Shown here: positions 1 to 15,660 of the stretch, piece by piece | How the letters are laid out: each line of letters opens with the position of its first letter | Position numbering within the stretch: the stretch's first letter is position 1 | The notes under the pieces: generated by a model | The model's input: only the letters and a program-made list of their open reading frames with translations | The model's database searches: none | What the model was told of the DNA's origin: nothing | Made by a program: the position numbers and the translations under genes | Origin: Neisseria subflava | Lineage (GTDB): Bacteria > Pseudomonadota > Gammaproteobacteria > Burkholderiales > Neisseriaceae | Length of the DNA stretch: 64,000 bases | Reading direction: 5' to 3' | Assembly (NCBI RefSeq): GCF_024205745.1 | Contig: NZ_CP073117.1 | Coordinates: 1,736,001 to 1,800,000 of the forward strand

Positions 1-2764
1 CCTTCAGGCGGCTGTGTGTTGAAACATTAGCAAACAGTATCCAATATAATGTTTGGAAAGCCCAGCCGCCTTCAGGCGGCTGTGTGTTGAAACTAGTTCT
101 TCTAAGTTTTTCTTATCTTTACCTTTGGCCCAGCCGCCTTCAGGCGGCTGTGTGTTGAAACAAGACAATGTTTCTGCAACAATTGTTGATGTTGACCAGC
201 CGCCTTCAGGCGGCTGTGTGTTGAAACTTTTGTTTTGTTTAACCGTGTTGAATCACATGGTTCCAGCCGCCTTCAGGCGGCTGTGTGTTGAAACGACTGG
301 GAGGAGGGTGTATATGAGGAAACTGTAACCAGCCGCCTTCAGGCGGCTGTGTGTTGAAACGGCAATCCTGAAGCCATGCACTTCGCGCCTGATGACTCCA
401 GCCGCCTTCAGGCGGCTGTGTGTTGAAACTAAATATAGGTCAATCTAAGTATGCTTTATTGTCCCAGCCGCCTTCAGGCGGCTGTGTGTTGAAACTCGCG
501 CTGAAGCTGATTGGTTATTTGGTATCAACGGCCAGCCGCCTTCAGGCGGCTGTGTGTTGAAACTCTTATCCCGAAGAAGTCGCGCGTAATCGAGACCCCA
601 GCCGCCTTCAGGCGGCTGTGTGTTGAAACGCTCTGCTTTGCCCGCAGATTGGCAAAAGGTTTACGCCAGCCGCCTTCAGGCGGCTGTGTGTTGAAACAGT
701 CATCACTTGTTTGATTTGGTATTTGACCCAGACCAGCCGCCTTCAGGCGGCTGTGTGTTGAAACGATTTCCTCTTGCTCTTCGGCGCGCTCGCCTGCTCC
801 AGCCGCCTTCAGGCGGCTGTGTGTTGAAACCAACCATACAGCCATCAATGCCCAACTTCTCGACCCAGCCGCCTTCAGGCGGCTGTGTGTTGAAACAATG
901 CACTCATACGGCTGCTGGCGGTAATGTGCCGCCAGCCGCCTTCAGGCGGCTGTGTGTTGAAACCTACCTTATCCAAAGTGGTCATATTGACCTGTCCAGC
1001 CGCCTTCAGGCGGCTGTGTGTTGAAACAGACGATCGTCGGGGTGGTTATTGCCGTGGTCGGCCAGCCGCCTTCAGGCGGCTGTGTGTTGAAACGACCGAT
1101 AGAGAGGTGAACAAGACTTATTTTGCCAGCCAGCCGCCTTCAGGCGGCTGTGTGTTGAAACGAATCGCAGTAATCACGCCATTTGTAACCGTACACCCAG
1201 CCGCCTTCAGGCGGCTGTGTGTTGAAACCGTATTGACGAGCAGGAGACCCCATATCAAGGTCCCAGCCGCCTTCAGGCGGCTGTGTGTTGAAACATCGTA
1301 AACGTCTTTCAACGGCGGCTGTTTCGTCCCAGCCGCCTTCAGGCGGCTGTGTGTTGAAACTCGAATAGCGAAGCCAGCCTACCATCATTACACCCCAGCC
1401 GCCTTCAGGCGGCTGTGTGTTGAAACGGCACGAGTGCGGACGTGATGGAATGCAGTGTGTCCCAGCCGCCTTCAGGCGGCTGTGTGTTGAAACCCCTTAA
1501 TTGCCTCTGATGGCGCGGCGGTCGCCCCAGCCGCCTTCAGGCGGCTGTGTGTTGAAACCGTAATATCCGCGACGGCCTGCTGCGTCAGCCCACCAGCCGC
1601 CTTCAGGCGGCTGTGTGTTGAAACAAGACAAAATCAAAGCCAAAGCCGCCATGATTCCCCAGCCGCCTTCAGGCGGCTGTGTGTTGAAACTTGATCATAT
1701 AAGCTCCCGAGTCGGCGTGATAAGCCCAGCCGCCTTCAGGCGGCTGTGTGTTGAAACACTAAACTTTAAAAAAAGGACAAAAAATGAAGACCCAGCCGCC
1801 TTCAGGCGGCTGTGTGTTGAAACACAACCCCCCGTGCAACAGTGGTTAATCTGTCCGCCAGCCGCCTTCAGGCGGCTGTGTGTTGAAACAAAAAGCTGCG
1901 AAGCGCAGGCGATGTATTGGGGCACCAGCCGCCTTCAGGCGGCTGTGTGTTGAAACTGCAAGGCATCTTCGGAGACGATGCCGAGACGCTCCAGCCGCCT
2001 TCAGGCGGCTGTGTGTTGAAACACTCGCGCCCTGAATGCCTACCACATTCTCGCCCCAGCCGCCTTCAGGCGGCTGTGTGTTGAAACAATGCGAGGTACT
2101 CACTTAAGAAACCATATTACAACCAGCCGCCTTCAGGCGGCTGTGTGTTGAAACCATCATCTTCAGCCTTCTCAAGTCTTGGGGCAATCCAGCCGCCTTC
2201 AGGCGGCTGTGTGTTGAAACGATTTCCGCCTGTGCTTTGGCAAGTGCGTCATTCGCCAGCCGCCTTCAGGCGGCTGTGTGTTGAAACTCAATAGTTCGGC
2301 GGTCAGGTCATCGGCCTGCCAGTCAACCCAGCCGCCTTCAGGCGGCTGTGTGTTGAAACTCAATTACGTCTGAATCTTGCAAAAGGCGGCGATCCAGCCG
2401 CCTTCAGGCGGCTGTGTGTTGAAACTGCGTATAACTTCGCCATTCGTTGCTCCAAAAAACCAGCCGCCTTCAGGCGGCTGTGTGTTGAAACTCGATGACC
2501 AAACGCAGCACATCGTAGTTATCGGCCCAGCCGCCTTCAGGCGGCTGTGTGTTGAAACTGATGAAAGTGCTTTTGCATTGGGTACTTTGGCAAATCCAGC
2601 CGCCTTCAGGCGGCTGTGTGTTGAAACCGTTTCCGCGTATTTGGTCGTCACCCCACCCTTGCAACCAGCCGCCTTCAGGCGGCTGTGTGTTGAAACCGGC
2701 ACAGGAACGATGGGCCTCCACAAATCGCGCTCCCAGCCGCCTTCAGGCGGCTGTGTGTTGAAAC

Positions 2765-2898
2765 AAGAAGATGGTACGGCGTTATGGCCTGAAAAGCACC
2801 CAGCCGCCTTCAGGCGGCTGTGTGTTGAAACAAGAAGATGGTACGGCGTTATGGCCTGAAAAGCACCCAGCCGCCTTCAGGCGGCTGTGTGTTGAAAC
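2765..2898 (+). repeat. Tandemly duplicated spacer-repeat unit (copy pair 1)
   Basis: The 35-base spacer at 2765-2799 is repeated exactly at 2832-2866, each followed by a full repeat. This is a direct duplication of one spacer-repeat unit, as produced by recombination or slippage between repeats rather than by two independent acquisitions. Confidence 0.95.
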
Positions 2899-3701
2899 TG
2901 ATAGTCAAGTCGATGTGTATGATATTAAAGAACCCAGCCGCCTTCAGGCGGCTGTGTGTTGAAACCTCAATCACTACGCCGGTGCCGTAGTACAAGCATT
3001 TCCAGCCGCCTTCAGGCGGCTGTGTGTTGAAACGTTACAAGAGGGAGAGCCGTTTACTGTAACGATTCCAGCCGCCTTCAGGCGGCTGTGTGTTGAAACA
3101 ACTGCAGCTGCTGTTTCTGTTGGTGATGTTGATACCCAGCCGCCTTCAGGCGGCTGTGTGTTGAAACATCATTAAAATGTTTGATAAATCGTTTCAAAAT
3201 GCCCAGCCGCCTTCAGGCGGCTGTGTGTTGAAACAACTGAAGCATCACGAGTTGTTGCAATTGGTTCACCAGCCGCCTTCAGGCGGCTGTGTGTTGAAAC
3301 CAACACCAAAGACGCGCCCAGCAAGGCCACCGCAGCCAGCCGCCTTCAGGCGGCTGTGTGTTGAAACCGCCAATCGCCGAACAAATGGTTTTGCTCCGAA
3401 TGCCAGCCGCCTTCAGGCGGCTGTGTGTTGAAACTTGTCAGGCTGTTATGGTTTGGAGAGGTGTGAAACCAGCCGCCTTCAGGCGGCTGTGTGTTGAAAC
3501 AGCAGCTGAACAGCGAGCTTGAGCAGACAGACGGCCAGCCGCCTTCAGGCGGCTGTGTGTTGAAACAATCACGAAATGCAACGGAAAGGATTTGCAGCAG
3601 GCCAGCCGCCTTCAGGCGGCTGTGTGTTGAAACAGGTAGCCCCAAGCAGATGGAGATACAAGACAGATTCCAGCCGCCTTCAGGCGGCTGTGTGTTGAAA
3701 C

Positions 3702-3837
3702 AAGATTATGTGGTTGATTTGTCAAACGAAACCAAAGCCAGCCGCCTTCAGGCGGCTGTGTGTTGAAACAAGATTATGTGGTTGATTTGTCAAACGAAAC
3801 CAAAGCCAGCCGCCTTCAGGCGGCTGTGTGTTGAAAC
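3702..3837 (+). repeat. Tandemly duplicated spacer-repeat unit (copy pair 2)
   Basis: The 36-base spacer at 3702-3737 recurs exactly at 3770-3805, each copy followed by a complete repeat. This is a second local duplication in the same array. Confidence 0.95.
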
Positions 3838-4975
3838 TTCAAGTCCTCGATACCGTTCTTCGCTTGGTATCCCAGCCGCCTTCAGGCGGCTGTGTGTTGA
3901 AACCGCCTACTTATTTAAATCAAGTTGTTGCGTACAACCAGCCGCCTTCAGGCGGCTGTGTGTTGAAACGCGCTGAATATGTTTTATGCACGTCGCGGCT
4001 ATCCCAGCCGCCTTCAGGCGGCTGTGTGTTGAAACCCAAACGGTCAGCATGACGACCAAATCGACTGCTTCCAGCCGCCTTCAGGCGGCTGTGTGTTGAA
4101 ACGCAGCACAGGTCAACATCGGTAACGTGATGTTATTCCAGCCGCCTTCAGGCGGCTGTGTGTTGAAACACACAATTACGCGCCCTTGCCGATAACTACG
4201 ATGCCAGCCGCCTTCAGGCGGCTGTGTGTTGAAACTTCTCGGCTCTGTCTTTTGCTGGGTTAATCCCCTCCAGCCGCCTTCAGGCGGCTGTGTGTTGAAA
4301 CAGGTTATCTGTTGCTGGTGTCGGCGTTCATTTGGCCAGCCGCCTTCAGGCGGCTGTGTGTTGAAACCTTTGGGTAAAGTGAGTGTGTTTGCCGCCTCTT
4401 CGCCAGCCGCCTTCAGGCGGCTGTGTGTTGAAACCGCATTCTCTTTCGTGCCGATAATGCGATAAAGGCCAGCCGCCTTCAGGCGGCTGTGTGTTGAAAC
4501 AAATAACGGCGTGCGTTGGCGCAGGATTCATTCACCAGCCGCCTTCAGGCGGCTGTGTGTTGAAACAGGCTGTCTGACGAAACGCCGAAAATCGAAGTAG
4601 CCAGTCGCCTTCAGGCGGCTGTGTGTTGAAACCAACGTTGCCATCGGTCGTAACGCAGGGCAAGGCCAGCCGCCTTCAGGCGGCTGTGTGTTGAAACTTT
4701 TAAAGAAACGCTTAAACCAAGAAGCCCGACACCCAGCCGCCTTCAGGCGGCTGTGTGTTGAAACAATTGCTCATTCTTTATACCTTTTCTACATAAGTTA
4801 CCAGCCGCCTTCAGGCGGCTGTGTGTTGAAACAAAGGCGAGAAAGGCGAAGATGGCGCGGCTGGTCCCCAGCCGCCTTCAGGCGGCTGTGTGTTGAAACT
4901 CGCTCATCTGCTTGATATGTTCTTCAAGCATTTCCAGCCGCCTTCAGGCGGCTGTGTGTTGAAACTAAACAAGCT

Positions 4976-6193
4976 GAGACCTTTGCAAAATTCCTTTTCC
5001 CCCAAACAGCCGAAATCCAAACACAGGTTTTCGGCTGTTTTCATCCAAAATCGCTTCTGATTCTACTCAAATACCCCCTTAATCCCTCTTGGATACCTGA
5101 TAATCAGGCATCCGGCCGCCTTTTAGGCAGCTACAGGCACACTTAGCCTGTTGGCGGCTTTCAACAGGTTCAAACACATCGCCTTCAGATGGCTTTGCGC
5201 ACTCACTTTGAGCAGCCCGAAATAGGCTGCCCGGGCATAGCGGAATTTACGGTGCAGCGTACCGAAGCTTTGTTCGACCACATAACGGGTCTTCGACAAA
5301 TATCGGTTGCGTTTGGTTTGCGCTTCCGACAGCGGATGTTTGCGGTGGGCTTTGCGCATAATGCCGTCCAGTAACCGATGCTCTTCCAGATGTTGCCGGT
5401 TTTCCTCACTGTCATAGTCTTTATCGGCATAGACGGTCGTACCTTTGGGTAACCCTTCCAACAAAGGCGACAGGTGTTTGCACTCATGGGCATTGGCGGG
5501 GGTAATGTGCAGTTTCTCGATATAGCCTTCCGCATCGGTGCGGGTATGTTGTTTGTAACCGAGTCTGTAGAGGCCGTTTTTCTTTATCCAACGGGCATCT
5601 TTGTCTTTACTCGGTGTAGTTTGGCCTCTGACTTGTCCTTCCTCATCAACTTCTATGGCCTGGCGCTGTTTGCTGCCGGCGGTCTGAATAATGGTGGCGT
5701 CAACGGCGGCGGCGGATGCTTTCTCTACTTTTAGGCCTTTTTCGGTCAGTTGGCGGTTGATCAGTTCCAATAATTCGGACAGGGTGTCGTCTTGCGCCAG
5801 CCAGTTGCGGTAGCGGCATAAGGTGCTGTAATCGGGGATGCTCAGTTCGTCAAAACGGCAAAACAGGTTGAAGTCGATGCGGGTGATGAGGCTGTGTTCG
5901 AGTTCGGGATCGGAGAGGCTGTGCCATTGGCCGAGCAGGATAGCTTTGAACATGGACAACAGGGGATAGGCGGGACGGCCGCGGTGGTCTCTAAGGTAAC
6001 GGGTTCTTTGACGATTCAGGTACTGTTCGATCGGTTGCCAATCAATCACCTGATCCAACTTCAATAGTGGGAAACGGTCGATGTGTTTGGCAATCATGGC
6101 TTGTGCGGTTTGCTGGAAGAAGGTGCTCATGGAAAATCCCCTAAATGTCTTGGTGGGAATTTAGGGGATTTTGGGGAATTTTGCAAAGGTCTC
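4976..6193 (-). mobile_element. IS1106-like insertion sequence (IS5 family) inside a CRISPR spacer
   Basis: The element is 1218 bp and bounded by inverted repeats GAGACCTTTGCAAAATTCC at 4976 and its complement ending at 6193. It encodes one transposase on the minus strand. The pentamer AAGCT lies directly outside both ends (4971-4975 and 6194-6198) and reads as a target duplication. Removing the element and one AAGCT rejoins a 34-base spacer (4966-4975 plus 6199-6222), the normal length for this array. The assignment to the IS1106 type rests on the recalled transposase sequence and the ends. Confidence 0.93.
5123..6130 (-). CDS. IS1106-type (IS5 family) transposase
   Basis: 335 residues, the usual length for this group. 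An N-terminal DUF772-type region (about residues 20-130) precedes a DDE transposase domain. Visible catalytic surroundings are AVDATIIQT (first Asp), VYADKDYDSEENR (second Asp) and the C-terminal YVVEQSFGTLHRKF (Glu). It catalyses cut-and-paste movement of the surrounding element by acting at the terminal inverted repeats. It occupies nearly the whole element, has no internal stop and so may be active. The start is the ATG at 6130, about 60 bp inside the right inverted repeat. The hairpin-forming sequence near 5015-5050 inside the left end may stop its transcript. Confidence 0.95.
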   Translation of the reverse strand: MSTFFQQTAQAMIAKHIDRFPLLKLDQVIDWQPIEQYLNRQRTRYLRDHRGRPAYPLLSMFKAILLGQWHSLSDPELEHSLITRIDFNLFCRFDELSIPDYSTLCRYRNWLAQDDTLSELLELINRQLTEKGLKVEKASAAAVDATIIQTAGSKQRQAIEVDEEGQVRGQTTPSKDKDARWIKKNGLYRLGYKQHTRTDAEGYIEKLHITPANAHECKHLSPLLEGLPKGTTVYADKDYDSEENRQHLEEHRLLDGIMRKAHRKHPLSEAQTKRNRYLSKTRYVVEQSFGTLHRKFRYARAAYFGLLKVSAQSHLKAMCLNLLKAANRLSVPVAA

Positions 6194-6823
6194 AAGCTGT
6201 TGTAACAGGTGTTGATGGTATTCCAGCCGCCTTCAGGCGGCTGTGTGTTGAAACAATACATCTTGAGTTCAAGGCAGGATGAACTTTTGCCAGCCGCCTT
6301 CAGGCGGCTGTGTGTTGAAACATCTCTAACAATTTGCAAGTATTCAGCAGTTTTTCCAGCCGCCTTCAGGCGGCTGTGTGTTGAAACGACCCGACCACCA
6401 AGAAAACCGAAACCGCCGCAACCAGCCGCCTTCAGGCGGCTGTGTGTTGAAACAAGGACGGCGTTCCGGTATTTGACGAAAACGGCAAACCAGCCGCCTT
6501 CAGGCGGCTGTGTGTTGAAACACGTTCACCCTCGGGTTTAAGCTGTTCCTGCTCCTCCAGCCGCCTTCAGGCGGCTGTGTGTTGAAACCTTCTAAAATGC
6601 AGTTAATCCCATGAATGAGGCTCCAGCCGCCTTCAGGCGGCTGTGTGTTGAAACATCGTTATCACGCACAATTGCAACCGAAACCGTACCCCAGCCGCCT
6701 TCAGGCGGCTGTGTGTTGAAACAAAAGGTAAAGCCGGTCAGCCGACATTTAAACGGCCAGCCGCCTTCGGGCGGCTGTGTGTTGAAACTCTAGCAACTAC
6801 GAATTCTATGACGACCTATTCCG

Positions 6824-7100: not shown

Positions 7101-8237
7101 ATGGGAAATAAACAAACCAATTCAACCATCAAATCTCGTGCAGCGGTGGCATTTGCACCAAATCAACCCTTACAAATTGTGGAAATCGATGTAGAAATGC
7201 CGCGTAAAGGTGAGGTGTTAATTCGTAACACGCACACTGGCGTGTGCCATACTGATGCATTTACGTTATCAGGAAGCGATCCTGAAGGTGTATTCCCTGT
7301 GGTGCTTGGGCATGAAGGTGCGGGTGTGGTTGTTACTGTGGGCGAAGGTGTGTCAAGCGTAAAACCGGGTGATCACGTCATTCCTCTTTACACTGCTGAA
7401 TGTGGCGAATGTGAGTTTTGTCGTTCAGGTAAAACCAACTTATGCGTCTCAGTGCGTGATACGCAAGGTAAAGGTTTAATGCCGGACGGCACGACGCGTT
7501 TTTCTTATCAAGGTCAGCCGATCTATCACTATATGGGTTGTTCGACTTTCAGTGAATATTCTGTTGTTGCCGAAGTTTCACTGGCGAAAATCAACCCAGA
7601 AGCGAATCACGAACAAGTATGTTTACTCGGCTGTGGCGTTACCACAGGAATTGGTGCGGTGCATAACACAGCAAAAGTACAAGAAGGCGACTCTGTTGCC
7701 GTGTTTGGCTTGGGGGCAATTGGTTTGGCGGTGGTGCAAGGTGCGCGTCAAGCCAAAGCTGGTCGCATTATCGCTATTGATACTAATCCTGCAAAATTCG
7801 AGTTGGCAAAACAGTTTGGTGCAACGGATTGTTTAAACCCGAACGATTACGATAAACCGATCAAAGATGTGTTGTTAGACATCAATAAATGGGGCATTGA
7901 TCACACCTTTGAATGTATCGGCAACGTAAACGTAATGCGTCAGGCATTAGAAAGTGCACACCGTGGTTGGGGACAATCCATTATCATCGGCGTAGCGGGT
8001 GCAGGACAAGAAATTTCAACTCGTCCGTTCCAGTTGGTCACAGGTCGTGTTTGGAAAGGCACGGCATTTGGCGGCGTGAAAGGCCGCTCTGAACTTCCGA
8101 AAATGGTGGAAGACTCAATGAAAGGCGACATCGAGTTAGAACCATTTGTGACCCACACAATGACACTAGATCAAATCAATGAAGCCTTTGAGTTAATGCA
8201 CGAAGGTAAATCGATCCGCGCTGTTATTCATTACTAA
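7101..8237 (+). CDS. adhC: S-(hydroxymethyl)glutathione dehydrogenase (class III alcohol dehydrogenase)
   Basis: 378 residues, the full length of zinc-dependent class III alcohol dehydrogenases. It oxidises S-hydroxymethylglutathione, formed from formaldehyde and glutathione, to S-formylglutathione in the cytoplasm; the family also reduces S-nitrosoglutathione. Visible motifs are GVCHTD with the catalytic-zinc Cys and GHEGAG with the zinc His, the structural-zinc cluster [15 protein letters not shown] near residues 100-114, and the NAD fold [13 protein letters not shown] near 210. Start: ATG after AAAAGGAAAAAAATA. Eight bases separate it from fghA, so the two form an operon. In pathogenic Neisseria this pair is controlled by the MerR-type NmlR; no nmlR gene is adjacent here. 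There is no uptake sequence inside, and codon use is more AT-rich than in neighbours, consistent with acquisition, possibly from Pasteurellaceae. Confidence 0.95.
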
Positions 8238-8245
8238 GGCTCGCG

Positions 8246-9073
8246 ATGAAACTGATTGAACAACATCAAATTTTTGACGGTTCGCAACAAGTTTGGGCAC
8301 ACTATGCCCAAACGCTGCAATGCGAAATTAAATTTGCCGTCTATTTGCCGGATAATCAGGAGAATCGACCGCTTGGTGTGATTTATTGGCTTTCCGGCTT
8401 AACGTGCACTGAACAAAATTTCATTACCAAATCAGGCTTTCAGCGTTACGCGGCAGAACATCAAGTGATTGTGGTTGCTCCTGATACCAGCCCTCGCGGA
8501 GAGCAAGTGCCGAACGATGCTGCTTACGATTTGGGGCAGGGTGCGGGCTTTTATTTGAATGCGACCGAGCAACCTTGGGCGATGAATTATCAAATGTATG
8601 ATTATATTTTGAATGAGTTGCCTGGTCTGATTGAGGAGCATTTTCCTACCAATGGCAAACGTTCCATTATGGGGCATTCAATGGGCGGACACGGCGCATT
8701 GGTATTGGCATTGCGAAACCGGGAACGTTATCAAAGTGTTTCTGCCTTTTCGCCTATTTTGTCACCAAGCCTTGTGCCTTGGGGAGAAAAAGCTTTTTCT
8801 GCCTATTTAGGGAAAGATCGTGAAAAATGGCAGCAATATGATGCTAGTTCGCTCATTCAACAAGGCTATAAAGTGCAAGGTATGCGCATTGATCAGGGCT
8901 TGGAAGATGAGTTTTTGCCGACACAATTGCGTACCGAAGATTTTATCGAAACCTGCCGTGCGGCAAACCAACCGGTCGATGTGCGCTTCCATAAAGGCTA
9001 CGATCATAGCTATTACTTCATCGCCAGTTTTATTGGTGAGCATATTGCCTATCATGCGGCATTTTTGAAGTAG
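8246..9073 (+). CDS. fghA: S-formylglutathione hydrolase
   Basis: 275 residues, an esterase-D family alpha/beta hydrolase. It hydrolyses S-formylglutathione to formate and glutathione, the step after AdhC. The nucleophile elbow GHSMGGHGA lies near residues 144-152, and the remaining triad candidates are the Asp in DQGLEDEFL and the His in GYDHSYYF. Also visible is the family-typical YWLSGLTCTEQNF near residue 50. It begins 8 bases after adhC stops and is probably translated from the same mRNA. The gene is called estD in some Neisseria literature. A hairpin terminator follows at 9104. Confidence 0.95.
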   Translation: MKLIEQHQIFDGSQQVWAHYAQTLQCEIKFAVYLPDNQENRPLGVIYWLSGLTCTEQNFITKSGFQRYAAEHQVIVVAPDTSPRGEQVPNDAAYDLGQGAGFYLNATEQPWAMNYQMYDYILNELPGLIEEHFPTNGKRSIMGHSMGGHGALVLALRNRERYQSVSAFSPILSPSLVPWGEKAFSAYLGKDREKWQQYDASSLIQQGYKVQGMRIDQGLEDEFLPTQLRTEDFIETCRAANQPVDVRFHKGYDHSYYFIASFIGEHIAYHAAFLK

Positions 9074-9183: not shown

Positions 9184-10815
9184 TCATTTAAATATCCCCC
9201 ATTCCAATCCAAATCGCTGTAAATATTTCCTCAATCGGTCGCTGTCATTGACTTTTGCCCTTTCTGTTCGGGAGACGTTGAACAATGCACGACCGGCAGC
9301 GGCCATGTTGGGGTGTTTGCGGCATTCGTCGATGACGTGTTGCAGTTGTAGTTTGTCAAACAAATCCAATGTGTCCCAATCGACTTTATCGGGGTAGTCT
9401 TGTGATTTTTCAGACGGCCTGTTATGTAGGAGGCCGTCTGAAAAGGGTTCTTCCGACCATAACCATTTGAGGCGTTCGATTTCGGCTTGGACTTGTTCTA
9501 CCTGTATCCTGCCTTGCGGCGCAAGCGTGGCCAGGCGCATGATGCTGGCGGCTAGGTCGCGGAAGTTACCGCGCCATGGGGCTTGGTTGGAGTGGGCGAA
9601 GTCGAGGTAGACGGATAGGGCTTCTTTGTTGAAGCGGGTGGTTCGGCCGAGTTCTTGTGAGGCTAGGGCGAGCTGGTGTTCGACGTTGGGTTCGATGTCT
9701 TCGCGGCGGTTGGCGAGTGCGGGCAGTGGGTAATTCCAGATGTTGATGCGGGCGAACAGGTCTTCGCGGAAGCGTCCGGCGCGGATTTCGTGGCGTAAGT
9801 CGCGATTGGTGCCGGCGATGAGTTGGAAGTCGCTTTTGACTTCGCTGTCGCTTCCGACGGGATAAAAGTGTTTTTCTTCAATGGCTTTGAGCAACATGGC
9901 TTGCTCGTCTAAACCCAATTCTCCGATTTCGTCTAAAAATAATACGCCGCCGTCGGCAGTTTTCAGATAGCCTTCACGTTTTTCTGCGGCGCCTGTAAAG
10001 GCGCCTTTTTTGTGGCCGAACAGGGCAGATGCTGCGCCGTCGCCGCGAAGGGTGGCGCAGTTTACATCGATAAATGTGCCTTTAATCAGATGGCGTGCTT
10101 TTTTCAATTCAAAAATTCTGCGTGCCAGCATGGATTTGCCTGCACCTGTGGGGCCGGAAAGTAGAATGGGGGAAGGGGAATTGAGTGCGACCTGTTCGAT
10201 TTCGGCAATCATGCGGTTGAAGGTGGCGTTTTGGGTGGAAATGTCGCTTTTCAGGTAGCGCACTGCGTCATCGCGTACAGCGGCAAGGCGTTCTGCCAGT
10301 ACGTCGTAACGAGCCAAGTCTAAATCGATGATTTCATAATTTCCAACATCGCCTGAAATCATGCTGCGTCTTTGATTTTTCGGTGGCGCAGTCTGGAGCA
10401 ACACCCCCGGAATTTGACGCGATTCCACCAATAAGAACAGGCAGATTTGGGCAACGTGTGTACCTGTGGTAATGTGGGTGAGATAGGTTTCTTCTTCAAT
10501 ATTAAATGTATAGCCTGCTGCCCAGTCGTGCAGTTTGGTATAAACCTCGGAAAAATCCCACGGGTTTGCCAGCTCCATAGGTACGAGATTGACGACTGTG
10601 TGCGGCGATGCCTGCTGAATATCGGCTTTTACATGATCTGCCAGTTCGCGGTATTTCTCCGCATAAAACAGCTCCATACGGTCAAGATGAAAATCTTGAC
10701 GCTGATTCATGGCGACATTCGGCCGCCATTTCAACCAACGCTCTTGATTGAAACCTTTATCCAGCACTGTACCGAGAAAGCTGATGGCGACTTGTTTTTT
10801 AGGGTTGGTATTCAT
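9184..10815 (-). CDS. rtcR: RtcR, sigma-54-dependent activator of an RNA-repair operon
   Basis: 543 residues in three parts. The N-terminal region (about 1-185; start AISFLGTVLDKG, then LTHITTGTHVAQICLFLL) matches the RtcR-type CARF-like sensor domain. The central AAA+ domain has Walker A GPTGAGKS (220-227), the sigma-54-contacting loop GAFTGA (271-276) and Walker B GGVLFLDEIGEL. A Fis-type helix-turn-helix occupies about the last 60 residues. It activates sigma-54 polymerase in response to an RNA-derived signal; in enterobacteria the target is rtcBA or rsr-yrlBA-rtcBA. Here it is divergent from a sigma-54 promoter at 11048 that drives a Y-RNA array and rsr. An inverted pair of uptake sequences lies inside the coding region before the HTH (9407-9444). 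The start is the ATG at 10815, 10 bases after a GAAGG. Confidence 0.95.
   Translation of the reverse strand: MNTNPKKQVAISFLGTVLDKGFNQERWLKWRPNVAMNQRQDFHLDRMELFYAEKYRELADHVKADIQQASPHTVVNLVPMELANPWDFSEVYTKLHDWAAGYTFNIEEETYLTHITTGTHVAQICLFLLVESRQIPGVLLQTAPPKNQRRSMISGDVGNYEIIDLDLARYDVLAERLAAVRDDAVRYLKSDISTQNATFNRMIAEIEQVALNSPSPILLSGPTGAGKSMLARRIFELKKARHLIKGTFIDVNCATLRGDGAASALFGHKKGAFTGAAEKREGYLKTADGGVLFLDEIGELGLDEQAMLLKAIEEKHFYPVGSDSEVKSDFQLIAGTNRDLRHEIRAGRFREDLFARINIWNYPLPALANRREDIEPNVEHQLALASQELGRTTRFNKEALSVYLDFAHSNQAPWRGNFRDLAASIMRLATLAPQGRIQVEQVQAEIERLKWLWSEEPFSDGLLHNRPSEKSQDYPDKVDWDTLDLFDKLQLQHVIDECRKHPNMAAAGRALFNVSRTERAKVNDSDRLRKYLQRFGLEWGIFK
9407..9444. repeat. Inverted uptake-sequence pair inside rtcR
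   Basis: TTTTCAGACGGCCT (9407-9420) and AGGCCGTCTGAAAA (9431-9444) form a perfect 14-bp stem with a 10-base loop. It is translated as part of the linker between the AAA+ domain and the C-terminal HTH (around residues 457-470, FSDGLL...RPSEK). Confidence 0.9.
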
Positions 10816-11047: not shown

Positions 11048-11064
11048 TTGGCACGCTGTTGGCT
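11048..11064 (+). promoter_or_regulatory. Sigma-54 (RpoN) promoter of the Y-RNA/rsr operon
   Basis: TTGGCACGCTGTTGGCT matches the RpoN consensus TTGGCACG-N4-TTGCW with the invariant GG (-24) and GC (-12) at correct spacing and one mismatch in the -12 box. The predicted start, 12-13 bases after the GC, falls at about 11076, exactly where the first RNA module begins. A neighbouring RtcR activator is the expected partner. Confidence 0.88.
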
Positions 11065-11075
11065 AAGTTGTGAAT

Positions 11076-11153
11076 GTAACGATACAGCAGATGCTTCGGG
11101 AAATACAGTTACCGGAGAAAAATTTTCCGTAAATTTAGTTGTTGTGTGGTTAC
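11076..11153 (+). ncRNA. Y-RNA-like module 1 (no tRNA-mimic part)
   Basis: The ends pair over about 14 positions, 5' GTAACGATACAGCAG with 3' TTGTTGTGTGGTTAC (one mismatch, several G-U). After the 5' strand comes ATGC, a purine-rich step and TACA (ATGCTTCGGGAAATACA), the motif shared by all seven modules and the candidate Ro/Rsr-binding helix. It starts at the predicted sigma-54 transcription start. Structure was judged by eye. Confidence 0.65.
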
Positions 11154-11154
11154 A

Positions 11155-11245
11155 GGGCGAATGCCAACAAGACTACATTTGGATTAACAGGTTCGAATCC
11201 TGTCTCGTCTGATAGACGTTGAACGTCTTGTTTATTTAGTCGCCC
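11155..11245 (+). ncRNA. Y-RNA-like module 2 with tRNA T-arm mimic
   Basis: 91 bases closed by GGGCGA (11155-11160) and TCGCCC (11240-11245). The shared motif ATGCC...ACTACA follows the 5' strand. It contains a perfect T-arm mimic, CAGG-TTCGAAT-CCTG, at 11188-11202, then two small hairpins (GTCT/AGAC and GACGT/ACGTC), but no D-arm. It is closely related at both ends to module 6 (11703-11772). Confidence 0.75.
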
Positions 11246-11256
11246 ACCCTTTTCCA

Positions 11257-11404
11257 ATATGGCAGGCAAATGCCTAGGGAAACTACAACATGGATACCCT
11301 TATGTCGCAGGTTCGAGTCCTGTCTCTGTTGTTCAAAATAGCAGAGTAGCTCAGTTGGTAGAGCCAAGGCATGTTTCCCTGAAAAACTTGTTGCGTGCCA
11401 TATT
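11257..11404 (+). ncRNA. Y-RNA-like module 3 (YrlA type) with permuted tRNA mimic
   Basis: 148 bases. The outer stem AATATGGCAGGCAA pairs with TTGCGTGCCATATT, 13 of 14 positions. Inside the stem, in order, are the shared ATGCC...ACTACA motif, a T-arm (CAGGTTCGAGTCCTG), an acceptor-like hairpin (CTCTGT with GCAGAG) and a D-arm (GCTC-AGTTGGTA-GAGC). T-arm before D-arm is a circularly permuted tRNA whose anticodon arm is replaced by the Y stem, as described for bacterial YrlA RNAs. It has no anticodon arm and so is not a tRNA. Confidence 0.85.
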
Positions 11405-11412
11405 ATTTTTAC

Positions 11413-11494
11413 GGCAGTAGGTGGATGCTCGGAGAGGGTACATTAACTTATCACGTTAAAACCGTTTCTCTTCATGTTTATCCGCTACGCTGCC
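11413..11494 (+). ncRNA. Y-RNA-like module 4 (no tRNA-mimic part)
   Basis: 82 bases. GGCAGTAGGTGGAT pairs with ATCCGCTACGCTGCC, with a small bulge. The shared motif reads ATGCTCGGAGAGGGTACA. The internal part pairs as GAGAG...CTCTTC with an A-rich loop. It is clearly homologous to module 7 (11776-11856). A single uptake sequence follows at 11503. Confidence 0.72.
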
Positions 11495-11547
11495 CACATT
11501 CGAGGCCGTCTGAAATATTCAGGCGGACCGATATAAAAACCGTTTTC

Positions 11548-11693
11548 GGTACATTCGGCAAATGCCGGAGGAATTACAGCCTGTAACGCTCGAGGTCGCG
11601 GGTTCGAATCCCGTCTCTGCCGCCAACTATGGCAGAGTAGCTCAGAGGATAGAGCGCGTAAAAATTTCTCCACTCTTTGTTGCCCAATGTGCC
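11548..11693 (+). ncRNA. Y-RNA-like module 5 (YrlA type) with permuted tRNA mimic
   Basis: 146 bases. The outer stem GGTACATTCGGCAA pairs with TTGCCCAATGTGCC. The shared motif is ATGCCGGAGGAATTACA. A T-arm (CGGG-TTCGAAT-CCCG), a 7-bp acceptor-like hairpin (CTCTGCC/GGCAGAG) and a D-arm (GCTC-AGAGGATA-GAGC) follow in permuted order. It is the second copy of the module 3 type, diverged enough that compensatory changes can be seen in the outer stem. Confidence 0.85.
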
Positions 11694-11702
11694 ACCCCTT
11701 AT

Positions 11703-11772
11703 GGGCGAATGCCATTAGGATTACATTCCTTTTCTGCTAAAACCTGAATGATCCTAGTAAATCTAGTCGCCC
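11703..11772 (+). ncRNA. Y-RNA-like module 6 (no tRNA-mimic part)
   Basis: 70 bases closed by GGGCGA and TCGCCC. ATTAGGAT also pairs with ATCCTAGT. The shared motif is ATGCCATTAGGATTACA. It resembles module 2 at both ends but has lost the T-arm insert. Confidence 0.72.
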
Positions 11773-11775
11773 TAC

Positions 11776-11856
11776 GGCAGTAGGCGGATGCCCGGAAGAG
11801 AATACATTAGCTTTCAGTTAAAAACGCTTCTCTTCATCTTTAGCCGCCATACTGCC
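11776..11856 (+). ncRNA. Y-RNA-like module 7 (no tRNA-mimic part)
   Basis: 81 bases. GGCAGTAGGCGG pairs with CCGCCATACTGCC. The shared motif is ATGCCCGGAAGAGAATACA. It is the homologue of module 4, with covarying stem differences (GGTGGAT there, GGCGGAT here). It is the last module before the rsr leader. Confidence 0.72.
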
Positions 11857-11865
11857 ACCCATTCA

Positions 11866-11907
11866 AGGCCGTCTGAAAAACAAAGCTAAAACAAGTTCAG
11901 ACGGCCT
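11866..11907 (+). terminator. Uptake-sequence hairpin between the Y-RNA array and rsr
   Basis: AGGCCGTCTGAA (11866-11877) and TTCAGACGGCCT (11896-11907) form a perfect 12-bp stem with an 18-base loop and no strong T run. It may partly terminate transcription, setting RNA modules above rsr mRNA, or mark the 3' end for processing. That role is inferred. Confidence 0.5.
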
Positions 11908-11935
11908 CAAACCAACAATATGAAAGAAAATGAAA

Positions 11936-13504
11936 ATGGCTAATACTACCTTGTTTCAATCGATTAAAAACCGTTTTACTAAAACCGATACCTATAATGA
12001 AGCCGGCGGCATCGCCTACACGCTGACGCCCAAACAACAGCTCGCCCAGCTTGCGGCTACCGGTTGTCTGAACAATACCTTCTATGCCGATGCCCAAAGT
12101 CAGCTTGACCAAGTGTTGAAATTGGCAGAAAGCCTGGATGCCGAGTTTATCGCCAAAACTGCCGTATATGCTCGTCAAAAAGGTTTTATGAAAGATATGC
12201 CTGCGCTGTTGCTTGCCGTGTTGGCGCAAAAAGACGTGAACATGCTCGCCCGCGTATTCGACCAAGTAGTGGACAACGGTAAAATGTTGCGTAACTTCGC
12301 ACAAATTATCCGCAGCGGCGCAGTCGGTAGAAAATCTTTCGGCAACCGTCCGAAAAAACTGATGCAAACTTGGCTTTTGACCGCCACCGAAAAACAACTG
12401 TTGAACGCCGCCGTCGGCAATTCGCCGTCGCTGGCAGACGTGGTCAAAATGGTGCACCCCAAACCGCGTGAAGCATGGCGTGCCGCATGGTTTGCATGGC
12501 TGATCGGCAAACCGTACGACCGCGAAGCATTGCCGCCCATTACCCGCGCTTTTGAAGACTACAAACAAAGCCGAGAAGGCGCATTGCCCAACGTTCCCTT
12601 CCAAATGCTTACAGCTTTAGACTTGAACAGCGGCGACTGGGCGCAAATCGCCCGCAACGGCTCATGGCAGCAGGTTCGTCAAAACCTGAACACTTTCCTG
12701 CGCCACGAAGTGTTTGAGAAAAGTAAAAACATCAAAATGGTGGCGGAAAAATTGCGTGACGAAACAGCCATTGCTCGCGCCCGCGTGCTGCCTTACCAGT
12801 TGCTGACCGCGTATCAGGCGACATCTGACCAAATGCCGTTTGAAATCCGCGAAGCCCTGCAAGATGCGATGGAAACCGCCGTACAAAACGTACCGGCAAT
12901 CCAAGGCAAAGTCGTGGTTTGCCCGGACGTCTCCGGTTCCATGCACAGCCCGGCTACCGGCTATCGCGGCAGTGTGTCCACCAAAACCCGCTGCATCGAC
13001 ATTGCCGCGCTCGTGTCCGCCGCTATGTTGCGTACCAATCCGCAAGCCCGCGTGATACCGTTTGAACAAATCACGGTAAACGTAAAGCTCAACCCGCGCG
13101 ACAGCATCATGACCAACGCCGAAAAACTCGCTAATGTCGGCGGCGGCGGAACGGCTTGCAGCGCACCGCTCGCCCTGTTGAACCGTGAAAAAGCCGACGT
13201 GGATTTGGTCGTCATCGTATCAGACAACGAAAGTTGGGCAGATGATAGCCAACGATGGGGCGCAACAACCAGCCTGATGAAAGAGTGGAATATTCTGAAA
13301 CGACGTTGCCCTGAAGCCAAACTCGTTTGCCTGGATATCCAGCCTTACACTACGGCTCAAGCACGAAACCGTCAGGATATCTTGAACATCGGCGGCTTCT
13401 CCGACCAAGTATTCTCCCTGATTGGTTCCTTTGCCGAACGAGGTATGGGTACAGATTTCTGGGTAGAAGAGATTGAGAAAACCGAGCTGGCGGCGGTAAA
13501 TTAG
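11936..13504 (+). CDS. rsr: Rsr, bacterial Ro60 orthologue (TROVE plus vWA domains)
   Basis: 522 residues from ATG 11936 (MANTTLFQ); an ATG two codons upstream is possible. The N-terminal TROVE/HEAT ring (about 20-330) includes GGIAYTLTPKQQLAQLAATG near the start and the AVYARQKGFMKDMPALLLA helix. The C-terminal von Willebrand A domain has a complete MIDAS start DVSGSMHSP near residue 328 and DNESW near 430. Ro60-type rings bind Y RNAs and the ends of misfolded RNAs, and in Deinococcus and Salmonella link Y RNA to PNPase. Its position just after seven Y-RNA-like modules and in a sigma-54/RtcR-controlled unit supports that role. It is followed by an inverted pair of variant uptake sequences at 13511. 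Confidence 0.95.
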   Translation: MANTTLFQSIKNRFTKTDTYNEAGGIAYTLTPKQQLAQLAATGCLNNTFYADAQSQLDQVLKLAESLDAEFIAKTAVYARQKGFMKDMPALLLAVLAQKDVNMLARVFDQVVDNGKMLRNFAQIIRSGAVGRKSFGNRPKKLMQTWLLTATEKQLLNAAVGNSPSLADVVKMVHPKPREAWRAAWFAWLIGKPYDREALPPITRAFEDYKQSREGALPNVPFQMLTALDLNSGDWAQIARNGSWQQVRQNLNTFLRHEVFEKSKNIKMVAEKLRDETAIARARVLPYQLLTAYQATSDQMPFEIREALQDAMETAVQNVPAIQGKVVVCPDVSGSMHSPATGYRGSVSTKTRCIDIAALVSAAMLRTNPQARVIPFEQITVNVKLNPRDSIMTNAEKLANVGGGGTACSAPLALLNREKADVDLVVIVSDNESWADDSQRWGATTSLMKEWNILKRRCPEAKLVCLDIQPYTTAQARNRQDILNIGGFSDQVFSLIGSFAERGMGTDFWVEEIEKTELAAVN

Positions 13505-13550: not shown

Positions 13551-13576
13551 TACCGATAAAAGATTGAGTGGCAAAC

Positions 13577-14155
13577 ATGAATGCTGACGAACTTGTCCTG
13601 ATTGAAACCTTTCCCGCAGCCTTGCGGCACGAAGCAGAAACGCTGATTTCGCGGCAGCCCTACCGCAGCCGCTTGCCCGTCCGCCAAGGGGAAACCGTTG
13701 TTTCAGACGGACAGAAAATCCGTCTCATCAGCCGTCAATATATTGTTTTTCATCCAACAGGGAACGAGGTTCGGCAACTGATGGCACACTGTCTGAATAC
13801 CCGCCATCATGACGGTCATGTTCGCGAACGGTATTTCAAACCGCTGCTCGCTGCCGGACAGCCTGAGTTCGTCCTGCCTTTTGCCGCACAGTTGCTCGGC
13901 GAATACGTTTTGCCGATACAATTTGACGTTGCCGTATTTTTCGAGAACAACGCCGCTGCTATAGCACGCTTTTTCGCTGGCAACCCGCTTTATTGGCAAA
14001 AGCAGAAAAACCGCATCCGCAGCTATTGGCATTGTTATCACAGCAGCCGTTATCCCGATTGGCAAAGTTATCCCGTCCGTTTGCTGGCGGAAGAAATCGA
14101 TAAGGAAATCGCCAGTATTGCTTTCAGACGGCCTCCCGCACCAAACGCCGTCTGA
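13577..14155 (+). CDS. Unknown protein between rsr and the RNA ligase
   Basis: 192 residues from the ATG at 13577; a GTG at 13568 would add three residues. I do not recognise a family. It is soluble, with no signal peptide or membrane segment. His/Tyr/Arg-rich stretches occur near residues 70-85 (CLNTRHHDGHVRERYFKPLL) and 145-165 (RIRSYWHCYHSSRYPDW). The repeated aromatic/basic content could suit RNA contact, but that is a guess. The last codons run through an uptake sequence (FRRPP). It sits in the same direction between rsr and the kinase-ligase, with gaps of 72 and 26 bases, so it is probably part of the RtcR-controlled RNA-repair unit. Confidence 0.8.
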   Translation: MNADELVLIETFPAALRHEAETLISRQPYRSRLPVRQGETVVSDGQKIRLISRQYIVFHPTGNEVRQLMAHCLNTRHHDGHVRERYFKPLLAAGQPEFVLPFAAQLLGEYVLPIQFDVAVFFENNAAAIARFFAGNPLYWQKQKNRIRSYWHCYHSSRYPDWQSYPVRLLAEEIDKEIASIAFRRPPAPNAV

Positions 14156-14181: not shown

Positions 14182-15660
14182 ATGCAAAAATTCATCTTAA
14201 TCCGCGGTCATCAAGGTTCTGGAAAATCGACATTTGCCGAACAAAAAGCCGCCGAATTTAAAGCGCAGTATCCGGATGCGGAAGTTGTCCGTATTGAAAA
14301 CGATTTGTTCATTACCGATGAATACGGTGAGTATTGCTGGTCGGGCGAAGCGGTGGATAAGGCGCAAAAACGCGGTAATGCTTTGATGACTGAAACCTTG
14401 AGACTTGGACGCCAAAATCCGAATCGAAATATTTTGATCATTCATTCCAATACCAACCAAAAAGCTTCGCGTTGCCGTCATTTGTTGGATCAGGCGGAGA
14501 AAAGCGGTTTCGAAACAGAGGTCTATCGACTGCACAATTTCTATCCCAACCTACACGGCGTAAAAGAGCATGACGTGTTGGCGGCGTATATCAAGTTGAA
14601 CCAAAATCGAGTGGCAAACGAAATCCACATTGAGACCGTGCAACCGGCAAATGCGGAGCAGTTAGAAAAAATCGAACAGATGCAGGCCATTGAGCATAAG
14701 CCGCTGGTGTTTGATGAGGCGCAGCAAACCTTTGTGACCGATCATTATCTGCAACACGGCAGCCACAACTTTACCGCCAAAGCATCCAAGCGTTATCCCG
14801 AATTACGCGTGTTGAAATACGCACGCAGCGTGTTCTATAACAACCGCTTTGATGATGCGCTACTGGAAATGCGCGGTTTGATTATCGACGCGCATAATCG
14901 AATCATCGTGCGCCCGTTTAAAAAAGTGTTCAATTATTCGGAGCGTATTGCCAAAGGCAGCCGTTACCCGATCCGAATCGGCGATGAGAGATTGGTGGAC
15001 GCGGTGGTGAAAGTAAATGGCTTCCTTGGTTGCTGTACTTTCGTCTCGCTTTCAGACGACCATCCGTCTAAAGGCGCGGCGTTTGACGGCAAAGTGCTGT
15101 ATTCGACTACCGGCTCGCTTGATAGCGCGTTCGCGGACATGACCACCGCACACTGCGCGCAATACGAAACCCTGTTCCGCGCTTATCCGAATCACACTTT
15201 TTTGTTTGAAATCACAGACGCGAAAGACGTGCACATCATCCGCGAAGAATTGGGCGAGACCTTAATCGGCTGCATTGAGGTGGCAACAGGCCGTCAGTTT
15301 ACTGAAGCCGAATTGGACGAAATCGGCAAACAATACGGCGTTCGCCGTCCAGAAATGCTGAAAAACATCACATTCGGCGAGCTGAAAGGCCGTCTGAAAA
15401 ACGTGGAACACGAAGGCTTTATGGTGTTTGATGCTCAAACCGGCGAAATGCTGTTCAAACTCAAATCGCCGTATTACCTGATTTCCAAGTTTTTAGGACG
15501 AAGCAACGAGGGCAATATCGGCCGCAAACTCGACAAACGCCATGTTGATGAAGAGTTTTATCCTTTAATCGACTACATCCACGAGCATCAGGAAACATTC
15601 AATGCTATGTCGGAATTGGATAAGATTGCGTTTATTCAAGCGTTTTTGAAGCAGTTGTAA
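14182..15660 (+). CDS. Fused polynucleotide kinase and T4 Rnl1-like RNA ligase
   Basis: 492 residues. The N-terminal P-loop kinase has GHQGSGKST at 9-17 and a likely LID/Arg region (IIHSNTNQKASRCRHLL near 86-102). The C-terminal half is a nucleotidyltransferase: RGLII near 231, VRPFKKVFNY at 243-252, motif I KVNG with the lysine to be adenylylated at K277, a motif IIIa-like FLFEITD, motif IV EGFMVF, and motif V FKLKSPYYL. Together this suggests 5'-phosphorylation and ATP-dependent ligation of broken RNA. No 3'-phosphatase or cyclic-phosphate-opening domain is evident, and neither RtcA nor RtcB is nearby. The gene closes the rsr locus. A variant uptake sequence (TTCAGACGACC) lies inside near 15050. 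Confidence 0.9.
   Translation: MQKFILIRGHQGSGKSTFAEQKAAEFKAQYPDAEVVRIENDLFITDEYGEYCWSGEAVDKAQKRGNALMTETLRLGRQNPNRNILIIHSNTNQKASRCRHLLDQAEKSGFETEVYRLHNFYPNLHGVKEHDVLAAYIKLNQNRVANEIHIETVQPANAEQLEKIEQMQAIEHKPLVFDEAQQTFVTDHYLQHGSHNFTAKASKRYPELRVLKYARSVFYNNRFDDALLEMRGLIIDAHNRIIVRPFKKVFNYSERIAKGSRYPIRIGDERLVDAVVKVNGFLGCCTFVSLSDDHPSKGAAFDGKVLYSTTGSLDSAFADMTTAHCAQYETLFRAYPNHTFLFEITDAKDVHIIREELGETLIGCIEVATGRQFTEAELDEIGKQYGVRRPEMLKNITFGELKGRLKNVEHEGFMVFDAQTGEMLFKLKSPYYLISKFLGRSNEGNIGRKLDKRHVDEEFYPLIDYIHEHQETFNAMSELDKIAFIQAFLKQL

Follow-up and report, generated by a model that had tools for sequence, protein, structure and literature searches.

The window, a 64,000-nt stretch of Neisseria subflava DNA from a genome of 2.21 Mb, carries seven adjacent modules at positions 11075–11856, placed between a predicted sigma-54 promoter and rsr, the gene for a bacterial relative of Ro60. 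Divergently from these modules, on the minus strand, lies rtcR (9184–10815), encoding a sigma-54 activator with a CARF-type sensor domain; its product matched RtcR (243 bits) and Sigma54_activat (172 bits) of Pfam, NF038308 (RtcR) of NCBIfam (789.5 bits; cut-off 650) and the PADLOC model RtcR--CARF_AAA_HTH (808 bits), and besides the RtcR models the defence-system models gave weak matches only in the window. The other parts of this locus lie on the plus strand. The sigma-54 -24/-12 box, TGGCACGCTGTTGGCT (11049–11064), agrees with 10 of 12 consensus positions, part of this score being preset because GG and GC were obligatory in the scan, and the predicted +1 at approximately 11075 is the first base of module 1 (M1). 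The sigma-54 DNA-binding domain of RpoN was found within a 461-aa open frame of the same genome, and rpoN looks full-length from its sequence.

Rsr is a ring-shaped RNA-binding protein, and genes of Y RNAs are expected next to its gene, which here starts at 11930. The product of rsr (11930–13504) exceeded the cut-offs of Pfam vWA_Ro60 and TROVE, and its best solved relative by sequence was Deinococcus radiodurans Rsr (2nvo; E 1.2e-24); the score with the NCBIfam Rsr equivalog was 85 bits, under a cut-off of 900. Adjoining rsr is a gene for a 195-aa protein (13568–14155) for which no Pfam family was found above cut-off, and next comes a gene for a protein composed of a kinase and a T4 Rnl1-type RNA ligase (14182–15660; RNA_lig_T4_1, 31.6 bits with cut-off 28.3; AAA_33, 28.2 bits with cut-off 27), for which no relative was found when solved structures were searched by sequence. 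The locus therefore has the RtcR and the predicted sigma-54 promoter of an RtcR-controlled RNA repair operon, and the kinase-ligase gene occupies the position that rtcBA has in other operons. An RtcB-family match was present elsewhere in the genome (G000:C1:1628586-1629623), and a search of the genome for RtcA found no match. Counting this one, 10 of the 46 genomes searched within the genus and 14 of the 83 within the family had a close Rsr (E 1e-20 or better), which marks the locus as accessory.

All seven modules have a common plan. Two stems enclose a variable head. On the 5′ side, a loop starting with AUGC separates stem 1 from stem 2, whose 5′ strand is rich in purines and is followed by UACA, which precedes the head. 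On the 3′ side, the two stems are separated by a loop ending with UUAG, CUAG, UUG or, in M4, UUUA. The sequence-only reading had already described seven self-closed units with ATGC, a purine-rich step and TACA, and these elements correspond to the AUGC loop, stem 2 and UACA of this plan. M1 (11075–11154), which has a plain head and lies at the predicted transcript start, abuts M2 (11155–11245), whose head is a minihelix of a T-arm and an acceptor stub. M3 (11258–11402) has a YrlA-like permuted-tRNA head without CCA, and M4 (11413–11494), a sister of M7 with a plain hairpin head, is followed by an imperfect inverted DNA-uptake-sequence hairpin (11503–11529) belonging to repeat D8, which is common to the M7 flank. 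M5 (11548–11693) again has a YrlA-like permuted-tRNA head, with an open acceptor end; M6 (11703–11772) has a plain head and arms resembling those of M2; and M7 (11776–11856), with a plain hairpin head, begins after a spacing of 3 nt. Between the array and rsr there is a 12-bp inverted uptake-sequence hairpin without a T-run (repeat I3; 11866–11907), ending 22 nt 5′ of rsr. Two intrinsic terminators were found, against 1.0 expected, and were given no weight.

At the DNA level, M3 and M5 are 70% identical over 84 nt, and M4 and M7 are 83% identical over 40 nt and 92% over 24 nt, their flanks sharing a 19-nt uptake-sequence stretch with 95% identity; M2 and M6 are alike in the arms only (84% over 25 nt and 79% over 19 nt) and differ in the heads. 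The three pairs of related modules proposed earlier are thus real for M3/M5 and M4/M7 and hold for M2/M6 in the arms but not in the heads, and the duplication proposed with them is visible as these repeats.

When each module was folded alone, z was between -3.0 and -5.8 against 200 dinucleotide shuffles, M7 having the lowest value, and the stretch 11070–11915 folded as a whole gave z -8.3 against 20 shuffles. In the partition function of the leader (11075–11930), all tested stem-1 pairs had probabilities of at least 0.60, most of them above 0.9, and nearly all stem-2 pairs of M2–M7 had at least 0.75, the lowest being 0.40 for the innermost pair of M5. For stem 2 of M4, the register of the minimum-energy fold (0.76–0.80) was adopted, and an alternative register (0.07 or less) was rejected. 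Stem 2 of M1 reached only 0.22–0.25: in the window and in three close genomes, the minimum-energy fold of M1 does without this stem by a margin of 1 kcal/mol, and in three other loci (L106, L109 and L110) it includes it. The double stem expected of a bacterial Y RNA is accordingly predicted with stem 1 in seven of seven modules and with stem 2 strong in six and weak (0.25) in M1.

The sequence-only reading had made covariation in homologous regions decisive for the modules, and this was observed for the M3/M5, M4/M7 and M2 families. The M3/M5 alignment (A1) consists of 28 sequences, 26 of them distinct, namely 26 of 39 matches to an M5 query (13 weaker ones omitted) plus the two window modules. 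Double changes occurred at 20 of its 38 pairs, and the covariation score was 0.339, compared with 0.178 in shuffles (sd 0.009; 0 of 500 as high) and 0.107 at most in slid versions; its 46 further pair types were equalled by 34 of 500 shuffles. The shuffle test is inflated by relatedness of the sequences, which the slid controls preserve. In the M4/M7 alignment (A2; 14 sequences), there were 18 double-change cells, against 7.1 in shuffles (0 of 500 as many), at five pairs, a number of pairs that 64 of 500 shuffles reached. The M2 alignment, with six distinct rows only, showed double changes at 4 of 24 pairs (2 of 500 shuffles equal) and further pair types not above those of shuffles (480 of 500). 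The relatives of M1 (six distinct rows; 98.3% of cells paired, no double change) and the three near-identical relatives of M6 were too uniform for this analysis. Covariation thus supports the M3/M5 and M4/M7 families and, on few rows, the M2 family.

On the basis of their heads, we divided the modules into classes: plain hairpins (class A; M1, M4, M6 and M7), a T-arm with an acceptor stub (class B; M2), and a permuted tRNA in the order of T-arm, acceptor 3′ strand, loop, acceptor 5′ strand and D-arm, in which the Rsr stem replaces the anticodon arm (class C; M3 and M5). The mixture of tRNA mimics and plain stems noticed earlier is real, and its tRNA-like part is larger than was proposed since M2 also has a T-arm, making three of the seven heads tRNA-like. 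YrlB is a Y RNA that is not known to have a tRNA domain, and M1, M4, M6 and M7 resemble it and other Y RNAs of this kind in having a plain head on an Rsr-type stem. YrlA (RF02553), encoded in the Salmonella rsr-yrlBA-rtcBA operon, is permuted in the same manner as M3 and M5, with an Rsr-proximal stem, T-arm, acceptor hairpin and D-arm, an order that the alignments and the covariation confirm for M3 and M5. In an E-value mode search, the YrlA covariance model scored 61.0 bits for M5, 60.5 for M3 and 40.7 for M2 and did not match M1, M4, M6 or M7; the YrlA-like search proposed earlier thus finds three modules, all of them below the gathering threshold of 69 bits, and Rfam at gathering thresholds gave no match in the whole window. 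Scores at or above the YrlA cut-off, from 70.8 to 114.8 bits, were found in 5 of 11 sister loci (L108, 114.8; L110, 99.2; L107, 98.2; L109, 91.7; L111, 82.1 and 70.8), and L106 scored 98.3 bits; none of the modules in the three closest genomes (L103, L104 and L105) attained the cut-off. A covariance model built from M4/M7 types (R1) found M6 with E values of 3.3e-5 (window) and 0.001 (genome); its matches in the genome were M7, M4, M6 and one at E 6.6 (150 of 1189 candidates scored). Weak R1 matches were not accepted as evidence, since a CRISPR repeat pair at 3142–3218 (E 0.0027) outranked M2 (E 0.0035).

The T- and D-arm motifs might point to a decayed tRNA gene cluster, or another genomic repeat, with hairpins formed by chance. 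Tandem tRNA-Gly genes of the same genome reached 35.5 bits when scored with the YrlA model, because a T-arm and the D-arm of the next tRNA stand in the same order as in YrlA. We regard this explanation as hardly credible, since ARAGORN found no tRNA within the window, M3 and M5 score 60–61 bits, stems foreign to tRNAs, stem 1 included, covary, and the modules are conserved beside rsr in many genera. A recent copy of a tRNA was likewise rejected for M5, the nearest match to its tRNA part outside the array being 84% over 36 nt (E 0.02). The shared order suggests that the permuted head may have arisen from the junction of two neighbouring tRNA genes. Circularly permuted tRNA genes of algae and archaea, as described in PMC3978253, also place the 3′ half first and link the acceptor ends through an intervening sequence; they mature to real tRNAs, whereas M3 and M5 carry an Rsr-type stem in place of the anticodon arm.

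The surroundings of rsr, in all 117,584 bases from 89 unique loci, were searched with a descriptor composed of the spacing from AUGC/U to UAC, both stems and the 3′-loop motif; five duplicates (L023, L024, L025, L028 and L098) had been removed as contigs of L107, L109, L111, L115 and L110, respectively. The coding strand contained 359 modules; the reverse strand contained 3, and dinucleotide-shuffle sets averaged 1.4 (five sets). Because the window and its relatives had served to tune the descriptor, this count is not out-of-sample, and its strength rests on the two controls. Arrays lie 3′ of rsr in 71 loci, mainly Burkholderiales by record titles, with one to five modules, and 5′ of rsr in 18 loci (Neisseriaceae, Cardiobacterium and one Acidobacteria MAG) with two to eight. 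The sequence-only reading had taken one or two Y RNAs per locus as the norm, which is not supported: at least two modules were present in 69 of the 71 downstream arrays and at least three in 58. Descriptor matches 543–566 nt 5′ of rsr in a few downstream loci were excluded as lying beyond the rtcR start (approximately 200–430 nt). The gene rtcR was found at 66 of the 71 downstream loci, and in four of them examined with Pfam the first same-strand ORF of at least 280 aa was rtcB, accompanied by rtcA in two. Within the stretches covered, tblastn (E 1e-10) detected a kinase-ligase relative in 15 of the 17 Neisseriaceae/Cardiobacterium loci, the match in L026 covering residues 1–117 only, and in none of the 71 downstream loci. 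In 15 of the same 17 loci a sigma-54 box stands 35–42 nt 5′ of the AUGC of the first module, the exceptions being L027, with a weak box 70 nt before it, and L111, with no close box.

Among IMG/VR contigs, 80 of 102 relatives were analyzed, representing 70 distinct loci, which gave 90 descriptor modules and 10 on the reverse strand; 40 loci had no module, and four had 6–11. One of these contigs (L136:6641-8940) has at least 11 modules 3′ of rsr with differing heads, and ARAGORN found tRNA-Glu (8200–8274) inside this array and tRNA-Thr (8846–8923) after it. Mixed arrays are therefore widespread, and the seven-module window is a good but not an extreme case. Cardiobacterium hominis NCTC10426 has two rsr loci (L026 and L027), with upstream arrays of six and five modules.

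These positions bear on the explanation that the array is a structured 5′ leader through which Rsr feeds back on its own mRNA, with no separate RNAs being made. Such a leader would suit the 18 upstream arrays, which mostly follow directly after a sigma-54 box, and the hairpin close to the start of rsr, but it would not account for the same modules 3′ of rsr in the other 71 loci, nor would it need diverse heads; in Salmonella, moreover, the operon is described as including genes of two noncoding Y RNAs, YrlA and YrlB (PMC9879122, PMC7790460). We consider this explanation quite improbable.

A further permutation, absent from the window, was found in related arrays. In this class E, the Rsr stem is placed within the D-loop, and the order is GGUAGAGC, a short-capped hairpin at the anticodon position, T-arm, acceptor hairpin and UAGCUCAGU. 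Class E is represented in Alysiella (L115, module 3 of five) and in numerous Burkholderiales, where it mostly closes the array. For the smaller form, RNAalifold predicted this structure from 12 sequences, and 16 of its 34 pairs had a double change in one sequence or more. The larger form (15 sequences), with GGUAGACGC, an extra long variable-arm hairpin and UGGCGGA, showed 23 of 40 pairs doubly changed, and we take it to be tRNA-Leu-like. These modules were chosen by the descriptor, which requires the outer stems and not the inner tRNA-like helices, and the pair counts carry no shuffle control; the two alignments (A5 and A6) hold 27 of 32 candidates, those omitted being in L040, L042, L065, L071 (a 101-nt one) and L079. 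Rfam at E 0.1 or better gave nothing on two smaller forms (L047 and L115) and, on a larger form in L057, a sub-threshold YrlA match of 36.2 bits.

We consider it likely that the locus encodes seven Rsr-binding Y RNAs as a polycistronic array, induced together with rsr and the RNA kinase-ligase when RtcR senses damaged tRNA, and that the modules serve as Rsr adaptors with interchangeable heads. This is supported by the seven folded modules, the covariation of three families and the strand-specific modules beside rsr elsewhere; by the YrlA matches of M2, M3 and M5 and of sister loci; and by the presence of RtcR, Rsr and rpoN together with the nearly constant distance from promoter to first module. 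Counted against it are the scores of M3 and M5 below the YrlA cut-off and of Rsr far under that of the NCBIfam equivalog, the weak stem 2 of M1, the lack of an RtcA match in the genome, and the shuffles that reach the number of doubly changed M4/M7 pairs (64 of 500) or of M2 pair types (480 of 500). With respect to known systems, the Salmonella rsr-yrlBA-rtcBA operon is likewise an RtcR/sigma-54 operon with rsr, whereas the window has seven modules, places them 5′ of rsr and has the kinase-ligase in place of rtcBA. The operons of RtcR, rsr, Y array and rtcBA, mainly of Burkholderiales, share the module stem, the sigma-54 box and mixed heads with the window, and differ in having one to five modules 3′ of rsr, many with class E heads.

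The Rsr-adaptor array would work in N. subflava as follows. Damage to tRNA would activate RtcR, which is described as binding tRNA halves with a cyclic phosphate (PMC7790460); sigma-54 polymerase would start at M1; and the transcript would yield up to seven Rsr-bound RNAs in addition to Rsr and the ligase. RtcA is described as important for induction in Salmonella (PMC7790460). The double stem, that is, stem 1, the internal loop of AUGC and UUAG, and stem 2, would dock on the Rsr ring, and the differing heads would choose a partner or block access to the ring, thus giving Rsr different partners or gates; one candidate partner is PNPase, as in the Rsr-YrlA-PNPase complex (PMC4987338, PMC9879122). 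Further literature on rsr-yrlBA-rtcBA, on the binding of tRNA fragments by RtcR and on Rsr-Y-PNPase includes PMC8394870, PMC7824862 and PMC12282133. Titles and abstract starts among the literature matches listed mention no Y-RNA array of Neisseria and no D-loop-opened form, and prior publication of either is possible.

The tRNA-like heads without an anticodon loop could double as uncleavable decoys for anticodon nucleases. A stronger version of this idea is that titration of tRNA-cleaving enzymes is the main role of the tRNA-like modules, with the Rsr stem providing stability. Class C keeps the D- and T-arms without an anticodon loop, and class E has a short-capped hairpin there; PMC7790460 gives PNPase-linked tRNA decay or competitive inhibition of nucleases as possible roles, and reports that no YrlA fragments were detected. 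Four of the seven window heads, however, are plain hairpins without a visible tRNA feature, and we judge titration as the main function to be unlikely. With arrays of a constant stem and varied heads, evolution has in effect carried out a structure-function experiment, in which the stem was kept and the heads were swapped.

The head of M5 has a feature of its own. Its acceptor (11615–11637) is a perfect 7-bp helix of CTCTGCC (11615–11621) and GGCAGAG (11631–11637), between whose strands lie G73-CCA (11622–11625) and the 5-nt linker ACTAT, whereas the acceptor hairpin of YrlA is capped. GCCA is present in 20 of the 28 A1 modules, including 18 of the first 19 rows, which are of the M5 type, and in 20 of 20 GCCA modules the base directly 5′ of the acceptor 5′ strand (-1) is U, with linkers variable in sequence and 4–12 nt in length. 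The M5-type end with GCCA and U-1 was found in 16 of 17 Neisseriaceae/Cardiobacterium loci, the exception being L027, and GCCA is absent from M3 in the window and three close genomes. Among 121 class C modules, 34 had an acceptor loop of 4 nt and 24 one of 8 nt by a simple pairing rule, and within downstream arrays a CCA-starting loop was found in L082 alone, in a 9-bp stem. An automatic count of CCA loops (22 of 121) was set aside because it included chance loops (L082, L104 and L108), and it missed two modules with the T-arm one base off (L107 and L111); the count of 20 of 28 was used instead.

Bacterial RNase P reads the 12-bp stack of acceptor and T-stem, RCCA and U at -1, and judging from these acceptor features M5 should be cleaved by it. 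G73 and U-1 can pair with each other, which would weaken the site, and the conservation of the GCCA end could reflect descent, as the loci are related. A bolder reading, which we hold to be possible rather than probable, is that rsr operons contain a modular kit of tRNA mimics that share one Rsr stem and come in two permutations or more, one with the anticodon arm replaced and one opened at the D-loop, the latter also represented by a tRNA-Leu-like form whose variable arm is long, and that M5 of Neisseria and Cardiobacterium is a true RNase P substrate, cut before G+1 (11631) to give an open loop, a free GCCA 3′ end and a two-piece Y RNA with a working acceptor. If so, this acceptor might be aminoacylated, might bind CCA-reading enzymes or might be resealed by the ligase of the operon. 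To our knowledge, the open acceptor end of M5 and the D-loop-opened permutation both lie beyond the known features of Y RNAs, and they make concrete and cheap testing feasible. The division of functions among modules suggested earlier is favoured, as a hypothesis, by the contrast of the open CCA end of M5 with the other heads.

Several additional observations were made in these loci. In L113 (3446–3583), the Rfam tRNA model gave 39.5 bits over two adjacent permuted modules, matching the D-arm of one and the T-arm of the next, with Rsr stems at the place of the anticodon arm. A Thg1-like gene lies on the minus strand approximately 2.0–3.0 kb 5′ of rsr, left of the array, in L106, L109 and L110, the copy in L109 scoring 111.9 bits with Pfam Thg1. 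Its immediate neighbour in L106 is rtcR, the match of which runs to the end of the stretch, and no rtcR match was found within 6 kb in L109 and L110. The Y array is broken by two ORFs in L106, L108, L109 and L110 and by one in L107 and L111, with lengths of about 150–175 aa and 114–137 aa, and the two in L109 gave no Pfam family above cut-off. In the window itself, CRISPR repeats CAGCCGCCTTCAGGCGGCTGTGTGTTGAAAC occupy about 1600–6540, read directly at 2400–3400 and as ORF translations elsewhere, in a region that also contains a presumably transposase-like ORF (5123–6130), and one spacer starting with AAGAAGATGGTACGG is present twice in succession, near 2765 and 2832.
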